A stretch of 57,712 nucleotides of DNA from Dehalococcoidia bacterium (GTDB lineage: Bacteria; Chloroflexota; Dehalococcoidia; GIF9; AB-539-J10), in the NCBI GenBank assembly GCA_021162545.1, contig JAGGYM010000058.1, positions 1 through 57,712 of the forward strand, written 5' to 3'. Shown one piece after another: positions 10,029-52,322 of the stretch (position 1 is its first letter; every line of letters begins with the position of its first letter). The translations under genes were made by a program, and so were the position numbers. The notes under the pieces were generated by a model, which saw only the letters and a list, made by a program, of their open reading frames with translations, ran no database searches and was not told the DNA's origin.

Positions 10029-11060
10029 ATGAAACATAAGACAAGTATCAAGGTCTTGATGGTCGTTCTGTGTGCCCTGCTGCTCCCCATGGCCATGATT
10101 GGCTGCTCTCCAGCATCGGAACCAACGCCAACGCCAACACAGGCAGGCCCCATCGTCTTTGGCGACATCAGTTGGGACAGCGCTCAGGTGCACAACCGTA
10201 TCGCCGCTTTTATCCTGGAGAATGGCTATGGCTACGAACCAGATTATATTCCTGGTGATACAGCCCCCCTGTGGATGGGTTTGGAGAAGGGTGACGTTGA
10301 CGTGATAATGGAATCCTGGACGGAAAACATACTTGAGATTTACAACAAAGCCATCGACTCTGGTGCCGCAGTCGATCTGGGGAGTAACTATCCCGACAGC
10401 GGGCAGGGGTGGTTGGTGCCCACCTACATGATTAAAGGCGACGCTGAACGCGGAATAGAGGCTACAGCTCCAGACCTCAAGACCGTTTTCGACCTGCCTC
10501 AGTACTGGGAGCTGTTCAAGGACCCGGAGGTACCTACCAAGGGGCGTTTTTTCAACTCCATCCCCGGATGGCAGTGCACCGAGATAAACAGCATCAAACT
10601 CAAGACCTATGGCCTGGATGAATCTTTCAATGACTTTCTTACCGGGTCGGGTGCAGCCCTGTCCGGTTCCATGGTCAGCGCCTATGAAAAGGGCGAGCCC
10701 TGGGTAGGATACTACTGGGAACCGACCTGGATACTGGGCAAGCTTGACATGACTTATCTGGAAGAACCGCCCTTTGACCAGTCAGAGTGGGATAACAAGA
10801 CCTATGGCTGTGCCTATAGTCCTGTCCAGGTCAACATCATCGTCAACACCGATTTTGCTGACAGCAATCCTCAGGTGGTGGAATTTCTCAGCAACTATGA
10901 GACTACCACCGCTATGGTAAACCAAGTCCTGTCCTATATGCAGGAGAACGAGGCAAGCACGAATGAAGCTGCCATCTGGTTCCTGCAGGAAAACGAAGAC
11001 CTGTGGACCAAATGGGTATCGCCAGAGGTGGCAGCCAAGGTCAAGGCTGCTCTACCATAG
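10029..11060 (+). CDS. Glycine betaine/proline-type ABC transporter substrate-binding lipoprotein (OpuAC family), copy 1
   Basis: Lipobox MIGC, EPTPTPT linker, IVFGDISWDSAQVHNRIAAFILENGYGYEPDYIPGDT...LEKGDVDVIMESWTENI; RBS aaaggagg. Confidence 0.9.
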   Translation: MKHKTSIKVLMVVLCALLLPMAMIGCSPASEPTPTPTQAGPIVFGDISWDSAQVHNRIAAFILENGYGYEPDYIPGDTAPLWMGLEKGDVDVIMESWTENILEIYNKAIDSGAAVDLGSNYPDSGQGWLVPTYMIKGDAERGIEATAPDLKTVFDLPQYWELFKDPEVPTKGRFFNSIPGWQCTEINSIKLKTYGLDESFNDFLTGSGAALSGSMVSAYEKGEPWVGYYWEPTWILGKLDMTYLEEPPFDQSEWDNKTYGCAYSPVQVNIIVNTDFADSNPQVVEFLSNYETTTAMVNQVLSYMQENEASTNEAAIWFLQENEDLWTKWVSPEVAAKVKAALP

Positions 11061-11150
11061 ATGCGGGACTGACACTATAGATAAAAGTGCAACATGGTAA
11101 AGGTAAACCTCTCCTTGAGAGAGAGTTTCACCATAAGTTTGCGGACATGA

Positions 11151-11186
11151 GAGACTGTTCGGTGTTATGCCGAACAGTCTCCCTTC
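11151..11186 (+). terminator. Intrinsic terminator after OpuAC copy 1
   Basis: GAGACTGTTCGG-tgttatg-CCGAACAGTCTC, 12-bp perfect stem, then ccttctt. Confidence 0.75.
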
Positions 11187-11281
11187 TTATCGAGGCGCAG
11201 CGGTGGCAGAGGATTCTTTGATGCCCATATATACCTGAAGGCAGGATGAGGCAAGTTCGTATAGAGCCTCGACTGGTCGCT

Positions 11282-11311
11282 TTGACAGCGATGCGCCAGA
11301 TTGGCTAAAAT
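11282..11311 (+). promoter_or_regulatory. Sigma70-like promoter of leader 2
   Basis: TTGACA (11282-11287), 18-nt spacer, TAAAAT (11306-11311), collinear with the copy-1 promoter. Confidence 0.55.
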
Positions 11312-11384
11312 GAAAACCTCGTTAGTTCAGGATGGGCTGGTTGTTCCGAACACCGGGGCAGAAATAAAATAAAAGGAGGATTTT

Positions 11385-11435
11385 ATGTGGTATGTGTGTG
11401 ATGTGTGCGTGTGGTGCAGTTATACTTGCGGGTGA
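11385..11435 (+). CDS. Putative Cys-rich leader peptide 2 (16 aa: MWYVCDVCVWCSYTCG)
   Basis: aaaaggagg-atttt-ATG; paralogous to 9771..9821. Confidence 0.5.
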   Translation: MWYVCDVCVWCSYTCG

Positions 11436-11477
11436 CGGGCTATTCCTCAGCCTCCCGTTATCGGTGAAGTATTCGTT

Positions 11478-11576
11478 ATGCAATTTTTAATCTGCTCCAA
11501 ACCTGTCAGGGCTCCCAATTTCCCATCGCCCGATTCCTTTCCCGTCGCATTCCCCAAGTTCCTCAAATACAACTAG
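11478..11576 (+). CDS. Putative leader ORF 2, copy 2 (32 aa: MQFLICSKPVRAPNFPSPDSFPVAFPKFLKYN)
   Basis: Same length and frame as 9864..9962, with no indels. Confidence 0.35.
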   Translation: MQFLICSKPVRAPNFPSPDSFPVAFPKFLKYN

Positions 11577-11585
11577 CTGTGCCTG

Positions 11586-11618
11586 TCCTGGGGCTTGTTT
11601 TGACGCCGGGAATTTTTT
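11586..11618 (+). terminator. Terminator/attenuator-like hairpin upstream of OpuAC gene 2
   Basis: TCCTGG ... CCGGGA followed by aTTTTTT; one C->T change leaves a G-U wobble, so pairing is kept. Confidence 0.5.
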
Positions 11619-11640
11619 GTCATAAATAAAGGAGGTAAGT

Positions 11641-12672
11641 ATGAAACGTAAATCAAGTATCAAGACCTTGATGGTCGTTCTGTGTGCCCTGCTGCTCCCC
11701 GTGGCCATGATTGGCTGCTCATCAACGCCAGCACCAGAACCGACTCCAACGCCAACGCCGACACCAGCACAGGCAGAAACTATTGTCTTCGATGACGCCG
11801 GCTGGGACAGCATCCAGGTGCACAACCGCATCGCCGGATTTATCCTGGAGAATGGTTATGAGGGTTACAAGGCCGAGTACATACCGGGGGAGACCATCAT
11901 GCTGTTTACAGGTTTGGCTCAGGGAGACATAGATATCTGTATGGAGAGCTGGGAAGAAAACATACAGGAAGTCTATGACAAAGCCCTCGCTGCCGGAGAA
12001 ATAATCGACCTGGGCAGCAACTTCAAAGACAGCTGGCAAGGATGGCTGGTGCCCACCTACATGATTGAGAACGGTGACCTGCCAGCAGGTATGTCCGTAG
12101 AGGATTTATCCGAATACTGGGAGCTATTCAAAGACCCTGAGGACCCAACCAAGGGGCGCTTTCACAGCTGTGTACCCGGATGGGGATGCCAGGAGATAAA
12201 CACCATCAAACTTAAGAGTTACGGACTGGATGAGTACTATGTTGATTTCCTGTGTGGCTCAGGTGCAGCGCTATCCGGTTCCATGATCAGCGCCTATGAA
12301 AAGGGCGAGCCCTGGCTGGGCTACTACTGGGAACCGACCTGGGTCCTGGGCAAAGTTGACATGACTCGCCTGGAAGAGCCTCCTTATAATCAGACGACAT
12401 GGGAGACCGACAAGACTTGCGCTTATCCTGCCGCCAAGGTTAATATCGTGGTCAATGCTGACTTTGCAGACAGGGCGCCTGATGTGGTGGAATTTCTCAG
12501 CAACTATGAAACCCTCACTGCTACGAACAATGCTGTCCTGGCCTATATGCAGGAGAACGAGGCAAGTACCGAGGAGGCTGCCATTTACTTCTTGCAGGAG
12601 TATGAGGATGTGTGGACTCAGTGGGTGCCGGCGGATGTAGCCAGCAAGGTCAAGGCTGCTCTGCCCCAGTAA
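11641..12672 (+). CDS. Glycine betaine/proline-type ABC transporter substrate-binding lipoprotein (OpuAC family), copy 2
   Basis: Same length (343 aa) and architecture as 10029..11060; IVFDDAGWDSIQVHNRIAGFILENGYEGYKAEYIPGET. Confidence 0.9.
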   Translation: MKRKSSIKTLMVVLCALLLPVAMIGCSSTPAPEPTPTPTPTPAQAETIVFDDAGWDSIQVHNRIAGFILENGYEGYKAEYIPGETIMLFTGLAQGDIDICMESWEENIQEVYDKALAAGEIIDLGSNFKDSWQGWLVPTYMIENGDLPAGMSVEDLSEYWELFKDPEDPTKGRFHSCVPGWGCQEINTIKLKSYGLDEYYVDFLCGSGAALSGSMISAYEKGEPWLGYYWEPTWVLGKVDMTRLEEPPYNQTTWETDKTCAYPAAKVNIVVNADFADRAPDVVEFLSNYETLTATNNAVLAYMQENEASTEEAAIYFLQEYEDVWTQWVPADVASKVKAALPQ

Positions 12673-16579: not shown

Positions 16580-18274
16580 ATGAAAAAATATGCACTGGTG
16601 CTGCTGGTAGCAGTACTGACCCTTCTCTCCTTTGCCGGATGCACACCGTCATCATCCCCTCAGGTTGCCCTGCAATCTCCGGCAAACGGCAGCTCCGCTT
16701 CCTCGCTGACGCCCATACTGGCCTGGAACTGCAACGAGCCGAATGTCTCTTTCCGCATCCAGGTGGCCAGCGACAGCAACTTCCAGAACCTGGTCATCGA
16801 CCAGTCGGCTCTGCCCAGTCCAAGCTATGCCATACCTCCGAGCAGGCTAAGCAACAACCAGCCCTATTACTGGAAGGTAAATGCCAGCAAGGCGGGCCAG
16901 ACCAGCGAGTGGACACCCTACTGGTCCTTCAATATCACCTCCTCGGCAGGTGGCACCGCAACAGTAAAGGCCACACTCGACGGCAATCCCTGGTCAGGGA
17001 ACGTTAACTACACCCTGAGCGGGGCAAAGCAGCAAACCGGCACCTCAGTGGCCCAGAACCTCAGCGGCCTGACCCCGGGAAGCTACACCCTCGGATACAA
17101 CTCCGGCGGCCCCTCAGGAGCCTCGCTGAAGAACATCACCCCTTCGGCAACCCAGAACCTGCTCGTCAGCAGCGGCATTACTTTCACCCTCAACTTTGTT
17201 TCCCAGTCACCCAGCACCGTAGTGGTCCACGCCACCCTCGACGGCAATTCCTGGTCGGGGAAGGTGCACTACAACATAAACGGCCCATACACCGATTCCC
17301 TCTCTTCCGTGCCCCAGACCTTCGACAACATGTCCGCGGGAACCTATACCGTGGGCTTCCGCTCCGGCGGCCCCAACGGCGCAACCCTGAGTGAAATCTC
17401 GCCGTCATCCAGTCAAACCCTATCCAACGGCGGAATTATTACCTTCACCCTGAACTTCCACTCGCAATCCTCCGGCACCATAAAGGTCAACGCCATGCTG
17501 GATGGCAGAAACTGGTCGGGAAACATCAACTACACCGTAAACGGCCCATACGACGATTCCAGCTCCTACGTTCCCGACAGCTTCGGCGGCCTGCCCCGTG
17601 GAACCTACAGCGTAAACTACCGCTCCGGCGGCCCCAACGGCGCAACCCTGGCGGGTATCTCCCCATCACCCTCGCAGACCCTGGACACCAACGGCACCAT
17701 AACCTTCACCTTCAACTTCCAGTCGCAGACCAGCAGCGGCACCATAAGGGTCAACGCCACCCTCGATGGCCGGCAGTGGTCTGGTTACGTCAATTACGTC
17801 ATACACGGGCCTTATGACGGCTCCGGCTCCAATGTCCCCAACACCCTTGGCAGCGTACCGCCAGGAAATTACTCTCTGAACTACATTTCCGGAGGCCCCC
17901 AGGGAGCGGAGCTGGGCAGCATTTCACCTCAACCGAACCAGTACGTGAACCCCGGTGGCACTATCTCCTTCACCATGAACTTCCACTCGCAGGGCGGTGG
18001 CACCATAAACGTCATGGCTAACATCGACGGCAGTCCCTGGCAGGGAGAGGTTCACTACACCATACGCGGGCCTTACACCGATTCCAGTTCCTCTGCACCC
18101 GACCAGTTCACCGACTTGCCGGCCGGAACTTATACTTTGTCCTACACCTCCGGCGGGCCTCACCAGTGCGTGCTGGAAAGCATTTCGCCTTCGCCAACGC
18201 AGCAACTTTGCAACAGATGTATCATAACCTTTACCCTTAACTTCCACTTCCAGAGCGGCATCCTTCCCGAATAA
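16580..18274 (+). CDS. Lipoprotein: Fn3-like N-terminal region plus five tandem ~86-aa repeats
   Basis: Lipobox LSFAGC; repeats (from ~16961) share xLDGxxWSGxVxYxIxGPYxxS...GxYxxxYxSGGPxGAxLxxISPSPxQxL...GxITFTxNFxSQ. Confidence 0.88.
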   Translation: MKKYALVLLVAVLTLLSFAGCTPSSSPQVALQSPANGSSASSLTPILAWNCNEPNVSFRIQVASDSNFQNLVIDQSALPSPSYAIPPSRLSNNQPYYWKVNASKAGQTSEWTPYWSFNITSSAGGTATVKATLDGNPWSGNVNYTLSGAKQQTGTSVAQNLSGLTPGSYTLGYNSGGPSGASLKNITPSATQNLLVSSGITFTLNFVSQSPSTVVVHATLDGNSWSGKVHYNINGPYTDSLSSVPQTFDNMSAGTYTVGFRSGGPNGATLSEISPSSSQTLSNGGIITFTLNFHSQSSGTIKVNAMLDGRNWSGNINYTVNGPYDDSSSYVPDSFGGLPRGTYSVNYRSGGPNGATLAGISPSPSQTLDTNGTITFTFNFQSQTSSGTIRVNATLDGRQWSGYVNYVIHGPYDGSGSNVPNTLGSVPPGNYSLNYISGGPQGAELGSISPQPNQYVNPGGTISFTMNFHSQGGGTINVMANIDGSPWQGEVHYTIRGPYTDSSSSAPDQFTDLPAGTYTLSYTSGGPHQCVLESISPSPTQQLCNRCIITFTLNFHFQSGILPE

Positions 18275-37612: not shown

Positions 37613-38254
37613 CTACTTGTTCTTGAGTTTCCTCTGGTACTTGTCGGTAAAGCGGTTCTTTCTATAGACAAAAGTTCGGCCTTTGAGTTGTTTGCCAGCG
37701 TTAAAATCTCTGATGCGTTCTTTTACCCACCCAGAGAGGTCTTTGTAATCTACATCATGCCACTCGTGATCCTTAACCACTTGCGTTTTAGAAGATCCAA
37801 TAGCCTCTCCGTTGGTTTGGTCCTCGGCGAACTGTGGTTTGCCTACTCCAGCTTGCTCTCCCGCTAGATGGTAACCAACTGCGCTCAGCAGTACAGGAAG
37901 GTGCTTTGCAATCGGCGGAGGGAAACCATCCAACCACTGGGGGGTAGATAGGAAAAACGCCAATTCTTCAGGCATAATGTCTTCTGTGCGAAATGGGATT
38001 ATTGGGATACTTTTAGTTCTCGCCATTGCAACTTCCTGACCTACGCCCTCCGCCACATCAGCGTTGTGTGAGAATATGAGAACTAACAGACGGCTTTCTT
38101 TGAGTGCCTTAGCTAGTTGAGTGTGATATCCAACGCCGGGGATTAATTCTGCATCGATGAAGCATTCGATTCCGTTCTGCTCCAAGTATTCGTGAACTTC
38201 ACGCGCGATTCCCGCATCTTTCTTAGCATAACTGATAAAAATATCATGGCTCAT
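37613..38254 (-). CDS. TIR-domain protein
   Basis: MSHDIFISYAKKDAGIAREVHEYLEQNGIECFIDAELIPGVGYHTQLAKALKESRLLVLIFSHNADVAEGVGQEVAMARTKSIPIIPFRTED. Confidence 0.92.
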   Translation of the reverse strand: MSHDIFISYAKKDAGIAREVHEYLEQNGIECFIDAELIPGVGYHTQLAKALKESRLLVLIFSHNADVAEGVGQEVAMARTKSIPIIPFRTEDIMPEELAFFLSTPQWLDGFPPPIAKHLPVLLSAVGYHLAGEQAGVGKPQFAEDQTNGEAIGSSKTQVVKDHEWHDVDYKDLSGWVKERIRDFNAGKQLKGRTFVYRKNRFTDKYQRKLKNK

Positions 38255-43058: not shown

Positions 43059-43373
43059 ATGGAAAACATTGCTAGTGGTGTAAAATCTCTGGAAGCTGAA
43101 GCTGAAAAGATAATCGAGGAAGCTAAAGCCGGTGCTCATGACATCCTTCTCCGCTCCAGGAAAGAAGCAGAAGAGATTCTTTCCGCTGAATTTCCACTGG
43201 ATGATGCCAGGGCGGAGTGCGATAGGATTGTGGCCGGAGCTAGAGAAGAGGCAGAGAACAGGGTAGAGCTTTCCAAAGAGAAAACTTCTGAAATCAGCAC
43301 CAATGCCAACAAGAAAATAGAAAAAATTGTGGAACGGATAGTGGATATTATCATTGGGACAGAGTCAGCGTGA
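43059..43373 (+). CDS. V/A-type ATP synthase peripheral stalk subunit H/G-like
   Basis: Coiled-coil VKSLEAEAEKIIEEAKAGAHDILLRSRKEAEEI; first stalk gene before subunit I. Confidence 0.75.
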   Translation: MENIASGVKSLEAEAEKIIEEAKAGAHDILLRSRKEAEEILSAEFPLDDARAECDRIVAGAREEAENRVELSKEKTSEISTNANKKIEKIVERIVDIIIGTESA

Positions 43374-45367
43374 TACCTTTAATCGTTAATACACCTGATC
43401 CTATGCTCAGGGTCAGAGTGGTGAGCACCAGGGACAGCACCGATACGGTGCTGAAAACTTTACATAAAGTTGGCACCCTGCACATTGAAGAGAGCACGGA
43501 ACTGAAGCCCATCGACAGGAAGGCCATCGACCAGGAAAGGGGAGAAATTTCCGAATTGCTGGCGGGCATTGAAGAGGTACTGGCCTGTATTCCTGCGGGA
43601 GAGAGCGTATCTCCGGGCCAGGACGTTGAAGTTATCTATACCAGGCCCTTTACTGAAGTGGACAGCGAAATAAGGATGCTCTGCACCAGGCTTGTTAAGA
43701 TGCACCGGCAATACTCCAGGCTTGAGGGAGAAAGTGAACGGCTGGCTAGCCTGAAGAAACGTCTGAGTTCCCTGGAACAACCGCCGGACGCCAGGCTGGG
43801 GGATTTGAATTTTTGCGGAAGTTATCTTTTTTCCGGAGTCTTTGCAATTCCCGTCGAGCTGTATGAAACCCTGCATGCCAGGGTTAAGGATTACCCGTTT
43901 GAAGATATTGCAGCCACGGTTGGAAACGAGACGGTCTTTTATCTTATAGCTAGAACCAGGGACAAAGAATTTATAGAAGCTACGGTTAGGGAGATGAGAG
44001 GCGAAGTTCTTGAAATACCGGACGAAGATTTGAGTCTGGGGGAATTCTTTCAATCGGTTGAGGACAAAATCAGCGGTCTTATGGAAGAGTCCTCGAAGCT
44101 TTATGGTGAGATCGTAGCTGCAACCAGAGAGAACCTGGAGAAACTGGTCCTCTTCAGAGAAGCGCTGTCGGCGGAAAGCGAAAAACTGTCAGCCCTGGAG
44201 AAAGCATGTGCAGCGAAATATGTCACCTTAATCGAGGGGTGGTTCCCCGAAGCCAGCGGGGAGGCCGCGATTTCAGAAGTCAGGCAAAATACAGAGTATG
44301 TCTTTATCGATACCAGGAAACCGGAGCCGTCGGAAGAACCTCCTACCAGGCAGAGGAACGCCCGCGGGCTCAAGCCGTTCCAGGTCATCGTAAACTTATT
44401 TGCAATTCCCAAATACAGGGAATGGGACCCCACGCCGGTAATAGCTTTTTCCTTTGCCCTTTTCTTTGGCCTGATGCTGGGCGATGTGGTTTATGCTCTC
44501 ATTGTAATGTTGTTTGCCTATAAGGGCTTGCGCTTCTTCGTTGACGATCCTGATAGTGAAGGCGTCAGGTTGTTTCAGAGAATACTCTATATCAGCAGCG
44601 GCGTGGCGCTGGTCATCGGCTTGCTCACAGGAAGTTATATGGGGAATATTTATGCCTTCTTCGGCATTGAAAGTCTGGCGCTTTCCGAAGGGGTAGAGCA
44701 ACTACTTGGCAACCCCCTGTCGTTCATAGTGCTCTCATTGTTCATAGGTCTCATTCATGTGAATACAGCTCACGTGCTGGCACTTATCGCGGGGATAAGG
44801 AAAAAAGAAAAAGGAATAATACCCGGTAAGGCAGGCATATTTATCCTGCAGCTCGCGGGAATACCCTGGACTATGCATTCCTTGCTCGGAGTTGATATCC
44901 CCCTGCTGACAGCACCGGTTTATTCTGCTTTGCTGTATGCTGTGGGTTTGGGCGTGATATTGATCGTTGCATCTTCCATTATGCAGAAGGGCATATTCCT
45001 GGGGAGCATCTTCTGGCTGTTTGATATTACCGGCATCCTGGGGGATGTCATGTCGTATTGCCGGCTGGCAGGGGTAGGTTTGGCTACATATTACCTGGCG
45101 TTCTGTTTTAACATGATGGCAACTTTGATATCAGGGATGATGCCTGAAGGAATAGTGCGACTAATTGCCGGCAGTTTAATATTCATTGTGATTTTGCTTA
45201 TTGGACATGCACTTAACCTGGTTCTCGCTGGAATTTGCTGTTTCGTCCACTCTCTCAGGTTGTGCTTTGTGGAGTTCCTGATGAAGTTTTATGAAGGGGG
45301 TGGTAGAGAATACAGTCCATTCCATCTGAGGAAGCGAGTATTTGTGCCGGCCAGAGGAAGAGCTTAG
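43370..45367 (+). CDS. V/A-type ATP synthase subunit I (a)
   Basis: 665 aa; ATPVIAFSFALFFGLMLGDVVYALIVML, DITGILGDVMSYCRLAGVGLATYYLAFCFNMMA, GHALNLVLAGICCFVHSLRLCFVEFLMKFYEGGG. Confidence 0.93.
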   Translation: MIPLIVNTPDPMLRVRVVSTRDSTDTVLKTLHKVGTLHIEESTELKPIDRKAIDQERGEISELLAGIEEVLACIPAGESVSPGQDVEVIYTRPFTEVDSEIRMLCTRLVKMHRQYSRLEGESERLASLKKRLSSLEQPPDARLGDLNFCGSYLFSGVFAIPVELYETLHARVKDYPFEDIAATVGNETVFYLIARTRDKEFIEATVREMRGEVLEIPDEDLSLGEFFQSVEDKISGLMEESSKLYGEIVAATRENLEKLVLFREALSAESEKLSALEKACAAKYVTLIEGWFPEASGEAAISEVRQNTEYVFIDTRKPEPSEEPPTRQRNARGLKPFQVIVNLFAIPKYREWDPTPVIAFSFALFFGLMLGDVVYALIVMLFAYKGLRFFVDDPDSEGVRLFQRILYISSGVALVIGLLTGSYMGNIYAFFGIESLALSEGVEQLLGNPLSFIVLSLFIGLIHVNTAHVLALIAGIRKKEKGIIPGKAGIFILQLAGIPWTMHSLLGVDIPLLTAPVYSALLYAVGLGVILIVASSIMQKGIFLGSIFWLFDITGILGDVMSYCRLAGVGLATYYLAFCFNMMATLISGMMPEGIVRLIAGSLIFIVILLIGHALNLVLAGICCFVHSLRLCFVEFLMKFYEGGGREYSPFHLRKRVFVPARGRA

Positions 45368-45382
45368 AGTGGAGTATAGAGA

Positions 45383-45862
45383 ATGCTAGCTGATCCCGTG
45401 TCTTTGGCTACTCTCGGCGGTGGTATCGCATTAGCTGGGGGTGTAGTAGGATCTTCACTGGGGATATCAAATGCGGCTTCTGCTGGCATAGCTACGTTGT
45501 CCAAAAAACCCGGGCAACTCAGGAACGTTATAATATTATCGTCTGTGCCAATGTCACAGACTTTCTATGGCTTGATAATGATGATACTTATCCTGACCAC
45601 GGTAATCCCCAAGATTGCTGCTATGCCAGATGCCGGTGGCAGTGGTTTTGCCGTGCTGGCTTGCAGTATTGTGGTTGGTTTTAGCGGAGCGTTCTCGGGA
45701 GCGTATAAGGGCTCTGTGCTAGCTGCAGGCATTGCATACCTGCCCAAGACAGAGGGAAAAATACTAACTAGCTCTCTGATGTTAGCGGTATTCGTTGAGC
45801 TAATAGCTGTGCTGGGGCTGGTATTTAGCATAATGGCATTAAGTATGTTAGGGCTCATGTAA
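45383..45862 (+). CDS. V/A-type ATP synthase subunit K (c), copy 1
   Basis: 4-TM proteolipid; VPMSQTFYG, GAYKGSVLAAGI, MLAVFVELIAVLGLVF. Confidence 0.93.
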   Translation: MLADPVSLATLGGGIALAGGVVGSSLGISNAASAGIATLSKKPGQLRNVIILSSVPMSQTFYGLIMMILILTTVIPKIAAMPDAGGSGFAVLACSIVVGFSGAFSGAYKGSVLAAGIAYLPKTEGKILTSSLMLAVFVELIAVLGLVFSIMALSMLGLM

Positions 45863-45883
45863 TAAATGTCTCGGAGGTGAAAG

Positions 45884-46366
45884 ATGATAATCAGTCCTGA
45901 GTCGTTTGCAGTTCTGGGAGGGGCTATAGCGTTGGCTGGTGGTCTCGCAGGGTCCTCGATAGGCATAGCCACTGCTGCTTCAAATGGAGTAGCCACATTA
46001 GCCGAGGAGCCAGGACAGTTAAGAAACGTTATCGTACTGGCGTCACTGCCAATGACGCAAACCTTCTATGGACTCATAATATTGATACTTATTCTAACCA
46101 CTGTAATTCCTAATCTGGTTGCTATGCCTGACGCCGGTGGCGGTAGTGGGTTTGCTGTATTTGCCTGCGGCATTATCGCTGCCCTTGCCGAAGGATTCTC
46201 AGGTGCATATCAGGGTTCCGTGTGTGCCTCGGGTATCTCGCTTCTGCCCAAAACGAAGGGGAAGATTTTGACCAACTCCATGATGCTTGCCGTCTTCGTT
46301 GAGCTAATAGGTGTCCTGGGGCTGGTTTTTACTATCATGGCTCTGAGCATATTGGGACTTTTCTAG
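45884..46366 (+). CDS. V/A-type ATP synthase subunit K (c), copy 2
   Basis: 4-TM proteolipid; LPMTQTFYG, GAYQGSVCASGI, MLAVFVELIGVLGLVF. Confidence 0.93.
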   Translation: MIISPESFAVLGGAIALAGGLAGSSIGIATAASNGVATLAEEPGQLRNVIVLASLPMTQTFYGLIILILILTTVIPNLVAMPDAGGGSGFAVFACGIIAALAEGFSGAYQGSVCASGISLLPKTKGKILTNSMMLAVFVELIGVLGLVFTIMALSILGLF

Positions 46367-46381
46367 AGGTCATGTCGAGAA

Positions 46382-46954
46382 ATGGAAAAGATAAATGAAG
46401 CTGTCATTGCCAAAGTGAACGAGGAAGCTCGGGTTATAATTGGAGAGGCTGAGGAAAAGGCCCGCGAGGAGATGGAGCGGGCCCGGAAGCGGTGGGAGGT
46501 GAAAATCGAGGAGGAAAAGGCCAGGATACGGGAGTCGGCAGAAGAGGAAGTCGCCAGAATCCACGCCAGGTCTTCTATCGAAGCACGGCAGGAGATTTCG
46601 GCCAAAAAATCCGACGTCATTACCAGGATGATTGACATGGCGGAGAGTAAATTGTCCGCGTTCACTGCTGATGAGCGCTGTCTTTCGAAATTGATTGCCG
46701 AGTCGCTCGGTGGCCTCGGTGGAGAGAAGGCCAGGATTTATGTTTCCCCCAAAGACATGGCTACGGTGCAAAAACTCCTTGAGAGCGACCAAGAACTGGC
46801 AGGCAGGATAGTGGAGGTCAGGGAATTGAACTGCCTGGGAGGCGTTGTAGCTGAAGACATCGAGGGAAAACTCAGGATCGATAATACCTACGGGACCAGG
46901 CTCGAAATGCTGATGCCTCAACTGCTGCCGGAGATAAGCAAGGAGCTTTTTTGA
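46382..46954 (+). CDS. V/A-type ATP synthase subunit E
   Basis: Long coiled coil, C-terminal LGGVVAEDIEGKLRIDNTYGTRLEMLMPQLLPEISKELF. Confidence 0.88.
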   Translation: MEKINEAVIAKVNEEARVIIGEAEEKAREEMERARKRWEVKIEEEKARIRESAEEEVARIHARSSIEARQEISAKKSDVITRMIDMAESKLSAFTADERCLSKLIAESLGGLGGEKARIYVSPKDMATVQKLLESDQELAGRIVEVRELNCLGGVVAEDIEGKLRIDNTYGTRLEMLMPQLLPEISKELF

Positions 46955-46961
46955 GCTCCGG

Positions 46962-48008
46962 GTGAGGGTAATTTTGATTGACCCGCGGTACGCATTTATC
47001 TCGGCCTACCTGAAAGGGGAGGAGTCCACGGCCATCACCATGAACCAGATGGGGGAGATGCTGAGAATGGATAACATCCATGATGCGCTGGCACTGGTCA
47101 GGGAAACCGATGTGGGAAGTTACCTGGAGCAGCTTCCTGTCGAGACTTTCGATGATCTGGATATGCTTTTATGGCACTACCTTGCCAGTTGTGTCGGGTA
47201 TGCAGAATCGTTTAAGTTCTCGCCACCTGATATGGCAAGAGTGTCCAGAGCATATATGGCGAAGTACGACGTTCTGAACATTAAAGCTGCCTTGCTGGGT
47301 ATTTCGACCGGCAGAAAAGCCAGCCTGATCCCCGTAGGAGATATCTCTGACAGAGGCTTGCTGGACGAGCTCTCTGCTGCTGAGGATACCGGCAAAATCA
47401 TAGAAATACTCACCGCGTCCGGTTTGAGGGATTATGTGCCCGCAGTGGAGAGTTACACAAACGGTGAGGGGATAAAGGCACGGGCTCTAGCTGAAGCCAG
47501 ACTGGAAAGCGCATACTACAAAAGTCTGCAGCATATGATAAGGAGAGTAAAAGACGGTTCGGTACTTTTCCAGACCATGGGCATGATTATAGACCTGGCA
47601 AATTTGCAGATTGTCAGCAGGACCATTATTGCGGGCTTGAAGGTTGATGCAGTTCAATGCGCCATCGCCGGCGGGTATCTCATTACAGAGGATACCGTCA
47701 AGGAGCTGCTCTCGCTTAAACCGGCTGACCTGCACCGTCACCTGGAGGACACTCAATACTCTGATATAGCTGAAGAAATACTGCTTTGCCACGACAGAAC
47801 CAGGAGCATTACAGCCGTGCAGGATGTTATCGATAAGCACAGGTTCAAATTGCTCAGGGAGATGCTGGCCCCCAGGGTACTGTCCCCCCTGGTGATGTTA
47901 TGGTATATAGTTTCCAAGGAGACCGAAATAAGAAATCTGAGGCTAATCTTAAAGGCGGTAAACGATAACGTCTCAAGAGAGGAAATCAAGCCTTATCTGG
48001 TGTCGTGA
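46962..48008 (+). CDS. V/A-type ATP synthase subunit C (d)
   Basis: Size, operon position, YMAKYDVLNIKAALLG, YIVSKETEIRNLRLILKAVNDNVSREEIKPYL. Confidence 0.9.
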   Translation: MRVILIDPRYAFISAYLKGEESTAITMNQMGEMLRMDNIHDALALVRETDVGSYLEQLPVETFDDLDMLLWHYLASCVGYAESFKFSPPDMARVSRAYMAKYDVLNIKAALLGISTGRKASLIPVGDISDRGLLDELSAAEDTGKIIEILTASGLRDYVPAVESYTNGEGIKARALAEARLESAYYKSLQHMIRRVKDGSVLFQTMGMIIDLANLQIVSRTIIAGLKVDAVQCAIAGGYLITEDTVKELLSLKPADLHRHLEDTQYSDIAEEILLCHDRTRSITAVQDVIDKHRFKLLREMLAPRVLSPLVMLWYIVSKETEIRNLRLILKAVNDNVSREEIKPYLVS

Positions 48009-48364
48009 GTATGATTCCTTTTAAAGAGTTAAAGATAGCCGTTATAGGAGACGAAGACCTGCTTGGCGGGTTGAGGCTGGCCGGCATCAGGGAATATTAC
48101 CCCATAGCAAACGACCATGATAAGCGCGAGAACGTCAGAAAAGCCCTGGAAGAATTGGTAAAAAAGTCCGACACCGGCATAATCGTTATGCCTGAAGATT
48201 ATCTGGGATATGCTGAAGACATAGTGTCACGGGTTAAAAAGGGGAATACCGCAACCCCTGTAATTGTGGAAGTTCCCTCAAAATCCGGCACAGCGTATCA
48301 AGATATCCCCGGGTATTATGGAACGTTCATGAGGAAATTTCTGGGATTTAATGTGGAACTCTGA
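48005..48364 (+). CDS. V/A-type ATP synthase subunit F
   Basis: KIAVIGDEDLLGGLRLAGIREYY...DTGIIVMPEDY. Confidence 0.9.
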   Translation: MSMIPFKELKIAVIGDEDLLGGLRLAGIREYYPIANDHDKRENVRKALEELVKKSDTGIIVMPEDYLGYAEDIVSRVKKGNTATPVIVEVPSKSGTAYQDIPGYYGTFMRKFLGFNVEL

Positions 48365-48410
48365 AGTGGCAGTTACCGGATGTTGCTATAAGGATGAAGC
48401 GGCCCGGAAC

Positions 48411-48430
48411 AAGAGGTCAATGAACCTCTT
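48411..48430 (+). other. Short intra-operon hairpin between subunits F and A
   Basis: AAGAGGT-caatga-ACCTCTT, 7-bp perfect stem, in the only large gap (120 nt) of the operon. Confidence 0.4.
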
Positions 48431-48484
48431 AATTTATGTTTGCGGCAGGTGTCGCGATGGCAATAAGAGCAGGAGGCTAAATTT

Positions 48485-50239
48485 ATGGGAAAGATATGGA
48501 GAGTTTCTGGGCCCCTGGTTATAGCTGATGAAATGAAAGGCTCTCAGGTCTATGAGATCGTTGAGATAGGCAAAGCGGGGCTGGTGGGCGAGATAACGGG
48601 GCTGGATGGTGATAAGGCGATAATTCAGGCTCATGAGGACACCCTCGGTTTGAAGGTCGGGGATAAGGTAGAAGGAACGGGAAGAATATTGAGCGTGGAG
48701 CTGGGACCGGGAATCGTAGGTTCTATTTATGACGGGCTGCAAAAATCCCTGCTCACCCTGGTTGAGGAGAGTGGCTCATTTATCAAGCGGGGAGTGAAAG
48801 CCCTGGCGCTGGACAGAAACAAAAAATGGCATTTCACCCCGACGGTCAAAGCCGGAGATATACTCGGCGTCGGCAGCATCATCGGCACAGTTCCTGAGAC
48901 CAGCATCATCGAGCACAGGATAATGGTGCCGCCGGGATTTAAGGGCACGATACGGGAAATCCATGAAGGCGACTATACCGTTGATGAGACTGTGGCCTGG
49001 TTGGAGTATGAAGGTAAGGTATCTGAACTTACGCTTAAACAGGAATGGCCCGTGCGCAAGCCACGACCTTACGAGCAGAGGTTAGCTCCTTCAGGCTTGC
49101 TCGCCACGGGCATGAGGGTGATGGATTATATGTTTCCCCTGGCTCTCGGCGGCAAGGCTGCCATTCCGGGAGGATTTGGTACCGGGAAAACCGTTGCTTT
49201 GCAGCAACTGGCCAAATGGGCCCAGACGCATCTGAATATTTACGTTGGCTGCGGGGAGAGGGGCAATGAGATGTCGGATGTCCTCTACAGTTTCAGGAAA
49301 CTTAAAGACCCCAACACGGGAGAGCTGCTGCAGGACAAGGAGATATTTATAGCCAACACATCCAATATGCCCGTCGTAGCCCGTGAAGCGAGCATCTTCG
49401 TCGGGATAACCGTAGCTGAATATTTTCGAGACATGGGATATGATGTCTTGCTGATCGCCGATTCAACTTCGAGGTGGGCGGAGGCCATGAGGGAAATGGG
49501 AGGAAGACTCGAGGAAATGCCGGGAGAGGAGGGTTTTCCTTCTTACCTGGGTTCAAGACTTTCTTCTTTTTACGAAAGGGCAGGAATGGTTGAATGCCTG
49601 GGGCGTCCCGAAAGAAAGGGTTCGGTAACGGTAATCGGGGCCGTAAGCCCCCCTGGAGCCGACTTCAGTGAACCGGTGACTCAAAATACCCTCAGGATAG
49701 TGGATGCTTTATATTCCCTGGATGTTTCCCTGGCGAACAAACGGCACTTCCCCACGATAAACTGGCTTACCAGCTACAGCCTTTATACGGATGCAGTCGG
49801 GGACTGGTGGAACGGTGTTTATCCTGAATGGGCAAATACCAGAACTGCAGCGTTGAAGATATTGCAGCAGGAAGCCGAGCTGGAGGAAATTGTGAGGCTT
49901 GTCGGACCTGAGGCCCTGCCCGAAGGCGACAAGCTTTTATTGCTCGTTGCCAGGATGCTGCGCGAAGACTTTCTACAGCAGAGCGCTTACCATGAAATCG
50001 ATGCCTACTGTGCGCCGCTGAAGGCGGGGCTCATGATTACGACTATAATGAAATTTTACGAACTGGCCAGGGAAATGCTGAATTCGGGAATAAGAGTCGA
50101 GGAAATTCGCTCATCTCCCATGGTGTACAAAATATCCAGGATGAAGGATATTTCCAACGAGCTCTTTGAGCAAAAAGCAAAGGAGTTGTGGCAGGAAATG
50201 GAACAGGAGCTAGCAGCTGATAAAGGAGGAGTCTTATGA
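48485..50239 (+). CDS. V/A-type ATP synthase catalytic subunit A
   Basis: P-loop [84 protein letters not shown]. Confidence 0.98.
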
Positions 50240-51642
50240 GTTTCTCTTCACTTTATATTAAAGAGGGGAGAGCAATCCGCAAGGCCAAGGGGGCTTTGCT
50301 CATAGTTGAAAGCATCCCCGGTGTAGAATTCAACGAGATAGTTGACGTTCAGCTTGGCAACGGCGAGATAAAGAGAGGTCAGGCGATAGATATTGGGGAG
50401 GAAGCAATTGTAATACAGGTGTTCGGAGGAGTCAGCGAAGTCGATCTCATCGACAGCAAGGTAAGATTCAAAGGAGAAACGCTAAAACTGCCGGTATCCA
50501 TTGACATGCTGGGGAGATTTTTCAACGGTATGGGAGAACCCATAGATGGAGGACCACCCATAATTCCCGATAACTATATGGAGGTCAACGGTGAACCCAT
50601 GAATCCTGCCGCGCGCCAGCCGCCTGCCGAGTTCATCGAAACCGGAATTTCAGTCATAGACGGACTGAACGCGCTGGTCAGGGGACAGAAATTGCCCATA
50701 TTCAGCGGGGCAGGTTTGCCTCACAACAGAATCGCAGCTCAGATAATAAGGCAGGCGACAGTGAAAGGAGAAGCGGGTAAGTTTGCGCTGGTATTTGCGG
50801 CCATCGGCATCAGTTACGATGAAGCCTCTTTCTTCATGAAGAACCTCGAGGGCACGGGCGCGCTGGAAAGAACAGTGGCCTTCATCAATACCGCATCGGA
50901 TCCCGTCATAGAGCGGATATCAACGCCGAGGATGGCTTTAACCGCAGCTGATTATATGGCATGGGAACAGGATATGCACGTCCTGGTCATACTTACCGAC
51001 ATGACCAACTATTGCGAGGCTCTCAGGGAACTCTCTTCGATGCGCGAAGAAATCCCTTCCAGAAGAGGATATCCGGGATACATGTACACCGACCTGGCCA
51101 CGATATATGAGAGAGCAGGCAGGCTTATGGGCAAAGAAGGTTCGATAACCATAATGCCCATTTTGACCATGCCCGATGATGATATCACGCATCCCATACC
51201 CGACCTTACCGGCTACATAACCGAAGGACAGATCGTGCTTTCACGAAACCTAGAAAGAAAGGGAATATATCTGCCCATAGACGTGTTTCTGTCCCTTTCA
51301 CGGATGATGAAGGAGGGAATCGGCCCGGGCAAAACCAGAGATGATCACAACAACGTCTTCATGCAGTCCTACGCCGCTTACTCTGAAGGATGCTATCTCA
51401 GAGAGATATCCACCATCATAGGAGCTGAATCGTTGAGCGAGAGGGATAAGGTGTATTTAACTTTTGCAGACGAGTTCGAGAGAAAGTTCGTCTCACAGGG
51501 TGAGTTCGAGAAGAGAAAGGTGGAAGATACGCTGGATATAGCGTGGAGCCTGTTCTCGATGCTGCCCGAAAGGGACCTGCGCTTAATCAGCGAAGAATTT
51601 GTCAGGAAATATCTCCCGAAAGGGGAATCGGGCAGCCCGTAA
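50236..51642 (+). CDS. V/A-type ATP synthase subunit B
   Basis: [82 protein letters not shown]. Confidence 0.98.
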
Positions 51643-51689
51643 CCTGGAACATCGAACTGGACGTGAAAAGCATGGCGAGGTCTCTGTAA

Positions 51690-52322
51690 ATGTCTCAACA
51701 GCTAATCAAGGTCAGGCCTACAAAAATTGAGCTGGTCAAGTTGAAGCGCAGGCTGTCTCTGTCTCAGAGAGTGCAAAAGATAGTTAAAGACAGACTTTCC
51801 ATCCTGACGATGGAGTTTTTGCAAATTGCACGAGAGACGGTGAAAGCCAGGGGGAAACTGGTTGAGTCGTTTGCGGAATCCTACAAGGCACTGTCGCTTG
51901 CCAGCGGGTATCATGGATACATAGCCCTGGAAAAGGAATTGCTGGCTGCCGAGACCGACCTGAGCATCATCACCGGAGCAAGAAATGTGGCGGGCGTGCG
52001 AATTCCCGCTTTTGAACTGGCAAAGAGCGAAAAGGCAATACAGCAATACAACCTGGCTGACACATCCGCCTGGGTGGACCGTGCAGCCCAATCGTCCGAG
52101 AAGTGCCTTGAAGCCATTGTTGAGCTAGCCGAGCTGCAGAGAAGCCTTGAGTTGCTGGGAAAGGAAATAAACAGGGCGAAAAGGATAGCCAACGCACTGG
52201 AGTATATTACCATTCCCAGCTTGCAGGCGACGATAAATTTCTTGAATCTGAAGTTCGAGGAAAGGGACAGGGAGGAGAAAACGAGGCTCAAGCGCGTGAA
52301 GATCCTGATCGGGGAGAGATAA
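51690..52322 (+). CDS. V/A-type ATP synthase subunit D
   Basis: PTKIELVKLKRRLSLSQRVQKIVKDR...INRAKRIANALEYITIPSLQATINFLNLKFEERDREEKTRLKRVK. Confidence 0.95.
   Translation: MSQQLIKVRPTKIELVKLKRRLSLSQRVQKIVKDRLSILTMEFLQIARETVKARGKLVESFAESYKALSLASGYHGYIALEKELLAAETDLSIITGARNVAGVRIPAFELAKSEKAIQQYNLADTSAWVDRAAQSSEKCLEAIVELAELQRSLELLGKEINRAKRIANALEYITIPSLQATINFLNLKFEERDREEKTRLKRVKILIGER

Follow-up and report, generated by a model that had tools for sequence, protein, structure and literature searches.

A conserved V-type ATPase K-subunit paralog with a cationic residue at a sodium-ligand position in Dehalococcoidia

The window analysed here is a stretch of 57,712 nucleotides from a Dehalococcoidia bacterium (contig JAGGYM010000058.1), whose draft genome of 1.39 Mb is 99.8% complete. 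A single V/A-type ATPase operon lies on the forward strand at 43059..52322, with the gene order H-I-K1-K2-E-C-F-A-B-D, which is also kept in relatives. Each of its genes has a Pfam or NCBIfam match, that of H being weak. The rotor subunit K (or c) is encoded twice in tandem, so that K1 and K2 stand in one operon with the genes for I, E, C, F, A, B, and D. Both open reading frames lie where a preliminary description, made by eye from the sequence, had placed them. K1, the upstream copy, has a lysine in place of one of the Na+ ligands. The features of the locus are as follows.

43059..43373, + strand: subunit H-like protein (peripheral stalk), first gene of the operon; weak PRK08404/AhaH match, E about 1e-4
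43370..45367, + strand: subunit I (a subunit, stator); PF01496, E=2.8e-27; stator arginines in SYCRLAGV and HSLRLCF
about 45370-45375, + strand: Shine-Dalgarno (SD) sequence of K1, GTGGAG, weaker than that of K2
45383..45862, + strand: K1, V-type K (c) subunit, 159 amino acids; two PF00137 repeats
45551..45559, + strand: K1 codons 57-59, Met-Ser-Gln, equivalent to NtpK 63-65 (S58 and the retained ligand Q59)
45707..45709, + strand: K1 codon 109, AAG (Lys), at the NtpK Gln110 position
45797..45799, + strand: K1 codon 139, GAG (Glu), the principal ion-binding carboxylate
45873..45883, + strand: SD region of K2, CGGAGGTGAAAG, strong by anti-SD duplex energy
45884..46366, + strand: K2, canonical K subunit, 160 amino acids; all five ligands
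46382..52322, + strand: E from 46382, C from 46962, F from 48005, A from 48485, B from 50236, and D at 51690..52322; Pfam/NCBIfam

K1 and K2 are 71% identical, and K1 is recognizably a V-type K subunit. It scores 59.6 bits against PF00137 in two stretches and 110 bits against the NCBIfam V-type subunit K model NF006219 (cut-off 108), and a phmmer comparison of K1 with PDB chains matched the Enterococcus hirae subunit NtpK (2bl2_A, E=1e-9). The same chain was the best PDB match of the AlphaFold2 model of K1 (template-modelling score 0.80), which has a mean predicted local distance difference test score of 93.9 and four helices at residues 5-41, 43-80, 87-118, and 128-155. In NtpK, Na+ is bound by Gln65, Gln110, Thr64, the Leu61 carbonyl, and Glu139 (PMC10382590, PMC2359735). 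Our site assignment was based on the PDB sequence of 2bl2_A. It bore out the residues first aligned by eye: L55, T58, Q59, Q110, and E140 of K2 fall in the five ligand columns and conserve them all, and the same columns hold V55, S58, Q59, K109, and E139 in K1, which thus lacks the full Na+ set. K109 occupies the Gln110 column of the ion site itself, not a place outside it. What K1 retains is the carboxylate on the fourth transmembrane helix (TM4), the stabilising Tyr62, Ser/Thr64, and the inner-helix glycines. Ligand positions below are numbered as in NtpK.

To place this substitution we compared 100 distinct K proteins, drawn from Dehalococcoidia and other Chloroflexota as well as from Opitutales and deltaproteobacterial lineages, the other phyla having entered through one scan of genome contigs. 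Gln65, Gln110, and Glu139 are present in all single-copy K's and all downstream K2s whose site could be read. The only exceptions are upstream tandem copies, 12 proteins from 11 genomes, and all 12 have lost at least one Gln ligand while keeping Glu139 and carrying Ser in place of Thr64. Eight are of the type R65/Q110, three Q65/K110, and one C65/L110; the cation sits at position 65 (Arg) or 110 (Lys), never at both in one K1. Glu139 itself is retained in the 12 K1s and in all canonical K subunits. Three more sequences were partial and lacked the Gln65 region; two of these are upstream copies. Neither K110 nor R65 occurred in a single-copy K in about 80 loci, though a single base change from Gln would produce either. 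Whole-phylum sampling revealed no tandem genome besides the window's own, and order-level searches returned only tandem genomes already known together with canonical single copies.

The three K110-type copies are the window's K1, one from another family of the same class (K033, genome G349), and one from the same family (K075, genome G011). The lysine is therefore neither a singleton nor a sequencing error, two concerns that the preliminary description had raised. It also asked whether this lysine is fixed in orthologous operons, and it is not: R65 is commoner, and the state shared by 11 of the 12 copies is a cation in the site. The remaining copy is the middle member of a triple array (L149:1-1424, G011:C66) that comprises a K110-type copy, the C65/L110 copy, and a canonical K; it has lost both Gln ligands and gained no cation in the site.

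The membrane core makes the pattern more specific. Over 98 core columns in the 12 K1s, Glu139 is the sole acid, and basic residues are confined to R65 (eight proteins), K110 (three), and an R34 in the C65/L110 copy. In 11 of the 12, therefore, exactly one acid and a single base are buried, the latter standing where a Na+ ligand has been lost. The chance that two random core columns would be the two Gln ligands is 1/4753.

A separate feature was seen in the third transmembrane helix (TM3). Two turns from Gln110, the canonical K subunits of this clade carry a second buried residue, Glu in 65 of 84 and Gln in 11 of 84, where NtpK has Gly103. It is E103 in the window's K2 (codon near 46190) and corresponds to column 102 of K1; all 12 K1s have F, L, or G there instead.

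In a phylogeny of the K proteins, the K1s form one clade (support 97/91) apart from all K2s and single K's, and this clade spans three families. Support for monophyly of the R65 type fell from 94/84 to 57/10 once the site columns were removed. Operons with tandem K genes are dispersed across both deep halves of the A-subunit tree, a distribution that takes seven gains or losses to explain, and K1 is therefore either ancient and repeatedly lost or has moved between operons. Within one genus, the pairwise ratio of non-synonymous to synonymous substitution (dN/dS) is 0.058 among K1s and 0.032 among K2s; at non-synonymous sites K1 evolves about twice as fast (0.092 vs 0.040). The Arg65 codon varies among CGA, CGC, CGG, and CGT. 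The 12 K1 coding sequences are all distinct, with frames open throughout, one of them ending at a contig end. Taken together, K1 is an old paralog that purifying selection has maintained.

Three simpler origins were considered and rejected. Recent duplication is ruled out by the saturated synonymous distance between the window's K1 and K2 (dS 2.8) and by the spread of the K1 clade across three families, a pseudogene by dN/dS and the intact frames, and an assembly or sequencing error by the same substitutions in independent assemblies.

The trees also contained an unrelated placement. Five V-ATPase operons of Opitutales (Verrucomicrobiota; L058, L074, L092, L099, and L114), each with a single canonical K, nest in one genus-level clade of Dehalococcoidia in the K tree and, for those whose A sequence was available, in the A tree, likely by horizontal transfer.

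Predicted translation signals differ between the two copies. The anti-SD duplex energy in the window is -5.9 kcal/mol for K1 and -10.8 for K2, and K1 has the weaker SD in 10 of 10 comparable genomes (sign test p = 0.001, the genomes being related). The medians are -6.1 for K1, -10.8 for K2, and -9.5 kcal/mol for single-copy K's. Between K1 and K2 a promoter scan stayed at chance level, and the gap holds no terminator. Judging by predicted SD strength, K1 is probably the minor partner of K2, present at low stoichiometry.

The arginines that a rotor subunit must pass are intact. Both stator arginines are found in 80 of 80 I subunits compared, from tandem and single-copy operons alike, and for this reason the motor looks functional. 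A compensating stator change around the two arginines was looked for in the same 80 proteins, and none was seen. An F-type operon is present as well, on a different contig, and the genome also encodes a membrane pyrophosphatase and an Rnf/Nqr-type subunit.

The interpretation we favour, at roughly even odds, is that K1 is a minority member of a hybrid ring with K2, in which a cation of its own site replaces Na+ and the subunit turns but carries no ion. Two different K genes stand in one operon and have been kept over evolution, as such a ring would require. The Lys at position 110 in the window, or the Arg at 65 in relatives, would take the place of Na+ and pair with Glu139 in an inferred salt bridge. 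The closed site, permanently neutral, would then pass the lipid face of the ring cycle without Na+, and Glu139 would swap between its own cation and the stator Arg with no ion moved. The Glu would have been kept because each passing subunit still has to offer the stator arginines a carboxylate. A ring with K1 would move fewer Na+ per turn at a lower ion/ATP ratio, which would favour ATP-driven Na+ export against a steep gradient. We hold the full mechanism more tentatively, at somewhat less than even odds: that a built-in Lys or Arg counter-ion, placed at either of two ligand positions according to lineage, neutralises the essential Glu and so creates a non-loading position that lowers the ion/ATP ratio.

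The preliminary description had suggested that a lysine could neutralise the site and that the ring may be hybrid. This central idea gains strength from a cation at either Gln within one paralog clade that always keeps Glu139; ring membership and non-transport are putative. Several points weigh against a self-neutralised, non-transporting K1. The middle copy of G011 means that a cation is not obligatory in the K1 site. Without the site columns, 11 of the 12 K1s still group, but weakly (72/88), and that C65/L110 copy leaves the clade. K1 can evidently be done without in one lineage, since a genus-mate (G001) has none at all and I is separated from K2 by just 35 bases. In the FoF1 of PS3, one cE56Q among ten c subunits abolishes activity and one cE56D does not (PMC8809890). 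The presence of Glu139 in every K1 fits this result, but if a single site that cannot ionise is enough to stop an F-type ring, the motor might likewise be poisoned by a K1 that is fully locked. A 2008 survey (PMC2359735) lists Arg among the residues that stand in place of Gln65 in ATPases predicted to translocate Na+; because of this, R65 alone need not abolish Na+ binding, and the Lys110 form found in the window is the stronger case for a blocked site.

These points lead to the alternatives. The survey's record of Arg65 in ATPases with predicted Na+ specificity (PMC2359735) speaks for a K1 that still carries an ion with altered affinity or selectivity, binding Na+ more weakly or using H+, so that mixed sites would be tuned to pH or Na+ level; so does the retention of Glu139, the invariant Tyr62, and Ser/Thr64, and the G011 middle copy, without the extra Na+ ligands, resembles H+ types. 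A buried Lys or Arg beside Glu139 should nevertheless lower its pKa and repel Na+, suiting neither ion, and the absence of K110 and R65 from the single-copy K's also counts against this explanation, which we consider improbable. The H+-tuned subunit suggested earlier fares accordingly: it is less likely for the Lys/Arg variants, where the carboxylate's pKa is lowered by the buried cation, and it suits only the C65/L110 copy. H+-type K/c subunits have an aliphatic residue at the Gln65 position (PMC2359735), whereas the window's K1 has Gln and its relatives Arg, only the Cys of the G011 copy coming near.

K1 differs from canonical K's outside the site as well, and a role in docking or assembly is a serious rival because these differences include the loop between the first two transmembrane helices (TM1-TM2). 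K1 could be a symmetry-breaking subunit like eukaryotic c' and c'', marking where subunit C/d docks or closing the ring, with the site change merely tolerated. The acidic pair of that loop (E41/E,D42) is lost in K1, being Q/D in most copies and KK in the window, where the loop (45503..45508) reads SKKP against a canonical [AS]E(E/D)P. This local charge reversal may face the central stalk. Further K1-specific differences are found at position 44 and at position 119 in the TM3-TM4 loop, and in every array the K1 gene comes before K2 and has the weaker SD. Such a role does not alone explain why a cation appears at the Gln ligands, at either of two positions, with Glu139 kept, and on balance we judge it unlikely. 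Far less probable still is a decaying duplicate or an artefact of assembly or sequencing. The faster non-synonymous rate of K1 and its absence from some close relatives (G009 as well as G001) would suit decay, but 12 open frames, a dN/dS of about 0.06, a dS of 2.8, and the same substitutions in independent assemblies argue strongly against it.

If K1 is indeed a rotor subunit with its own counter-ion, its interest extends beyond this operon. Ring size and the number of site-bearing hairpins are commonly regarded as what determines the ion/ATP ratio of rotary ATPases; a self-filled rotor site, naturally long-maintained, would add a third determinant. K1 would also test directly whether each rotor position must exchange an ion or whether offering the stator arginine a carboxylate is enough.

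Other features of the window and genome lie outside the operon. Two tandem paralogs at 10029..12672 resemble glycine-betaine/proline-type ABC substrate-binding lipoproteins, which is compatible with a saline habitat. The lipoprotein encoded at 16580..18274 repeats a 'W-S-G-x-V-x-Y...GPY...GTY...SGGP' unit about five times, and a small protein with a TIR-like start (DIFISYAKKD), possibly in defence or signalling, is encoded at 37613..38254 on the minus strand. At L154:4103-4572 (G000:C3, minus strand), an orphan F-type c subunit and a short AtpI-like gene lie by gatC/gatA, away from the main atp operon (C22).

Hybrid rings and paralogous proteolipids are known already; new, as far as the open-access literature we searched goes, is a conserved paralog in which Lys or Arg replaces a Na+ ligand, since our search there turned up no K/c paralog whose site carries a cation. 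The notion that ion/ATP ratios evolve when rotor genes duplicate is well established (Cross and Taiz 1990, as cited in PMC2359735). The ring of E. hirae (2bl2) shares with K1 the four-helix K, the one TM4 carboxylate, and the ligand columns, but consists of ten identical K subunits (PMC2359735, PMC10382590), where the operon studied here adds a second K with Gln110 changed to Lys. A chain from Acetobacterium woodii (4bem) is also a structural match to the K1 model. The F/V-hybrid ring of A. woodii and Eubacterium limosum (c1 with c2/c3) is likewise encoded by tandem c genes, one with fewer ion sites per hairpin. In that ring the minor component, a double hairpin, has one site and sits among F-type subunits, whereas K1 and K2 both belong to the V-type K subunits, and K1, the putative minor partner, keeps its Glu, its single site being filled, on our interpretation, by a side-chain cation. 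Eukaryotic V-ATPases similarly combine paralogous proteolipids, c, c' (Vma11), and c'' (Vma16), as distinct low-copy members of one ring. K1 also matches eukaryotic c'' chains in sequence, but has the standard four helices and not the extended form of c''. The yeast paralogs each keep a working essential Glu, and we know of no cationic ligand replacement in eukaryotic V-ATPase proteolipids. The two-carboxylate Na+ c-ring of Fusobacterium nucleatum departs from the canonical set at the same Gln32/Gln110 position; there a protonated Glu replaces Gln and Na+ binding remains (PMC3692424), whereas in K1 Gln has given way to Lys, a residue of opposite charge.
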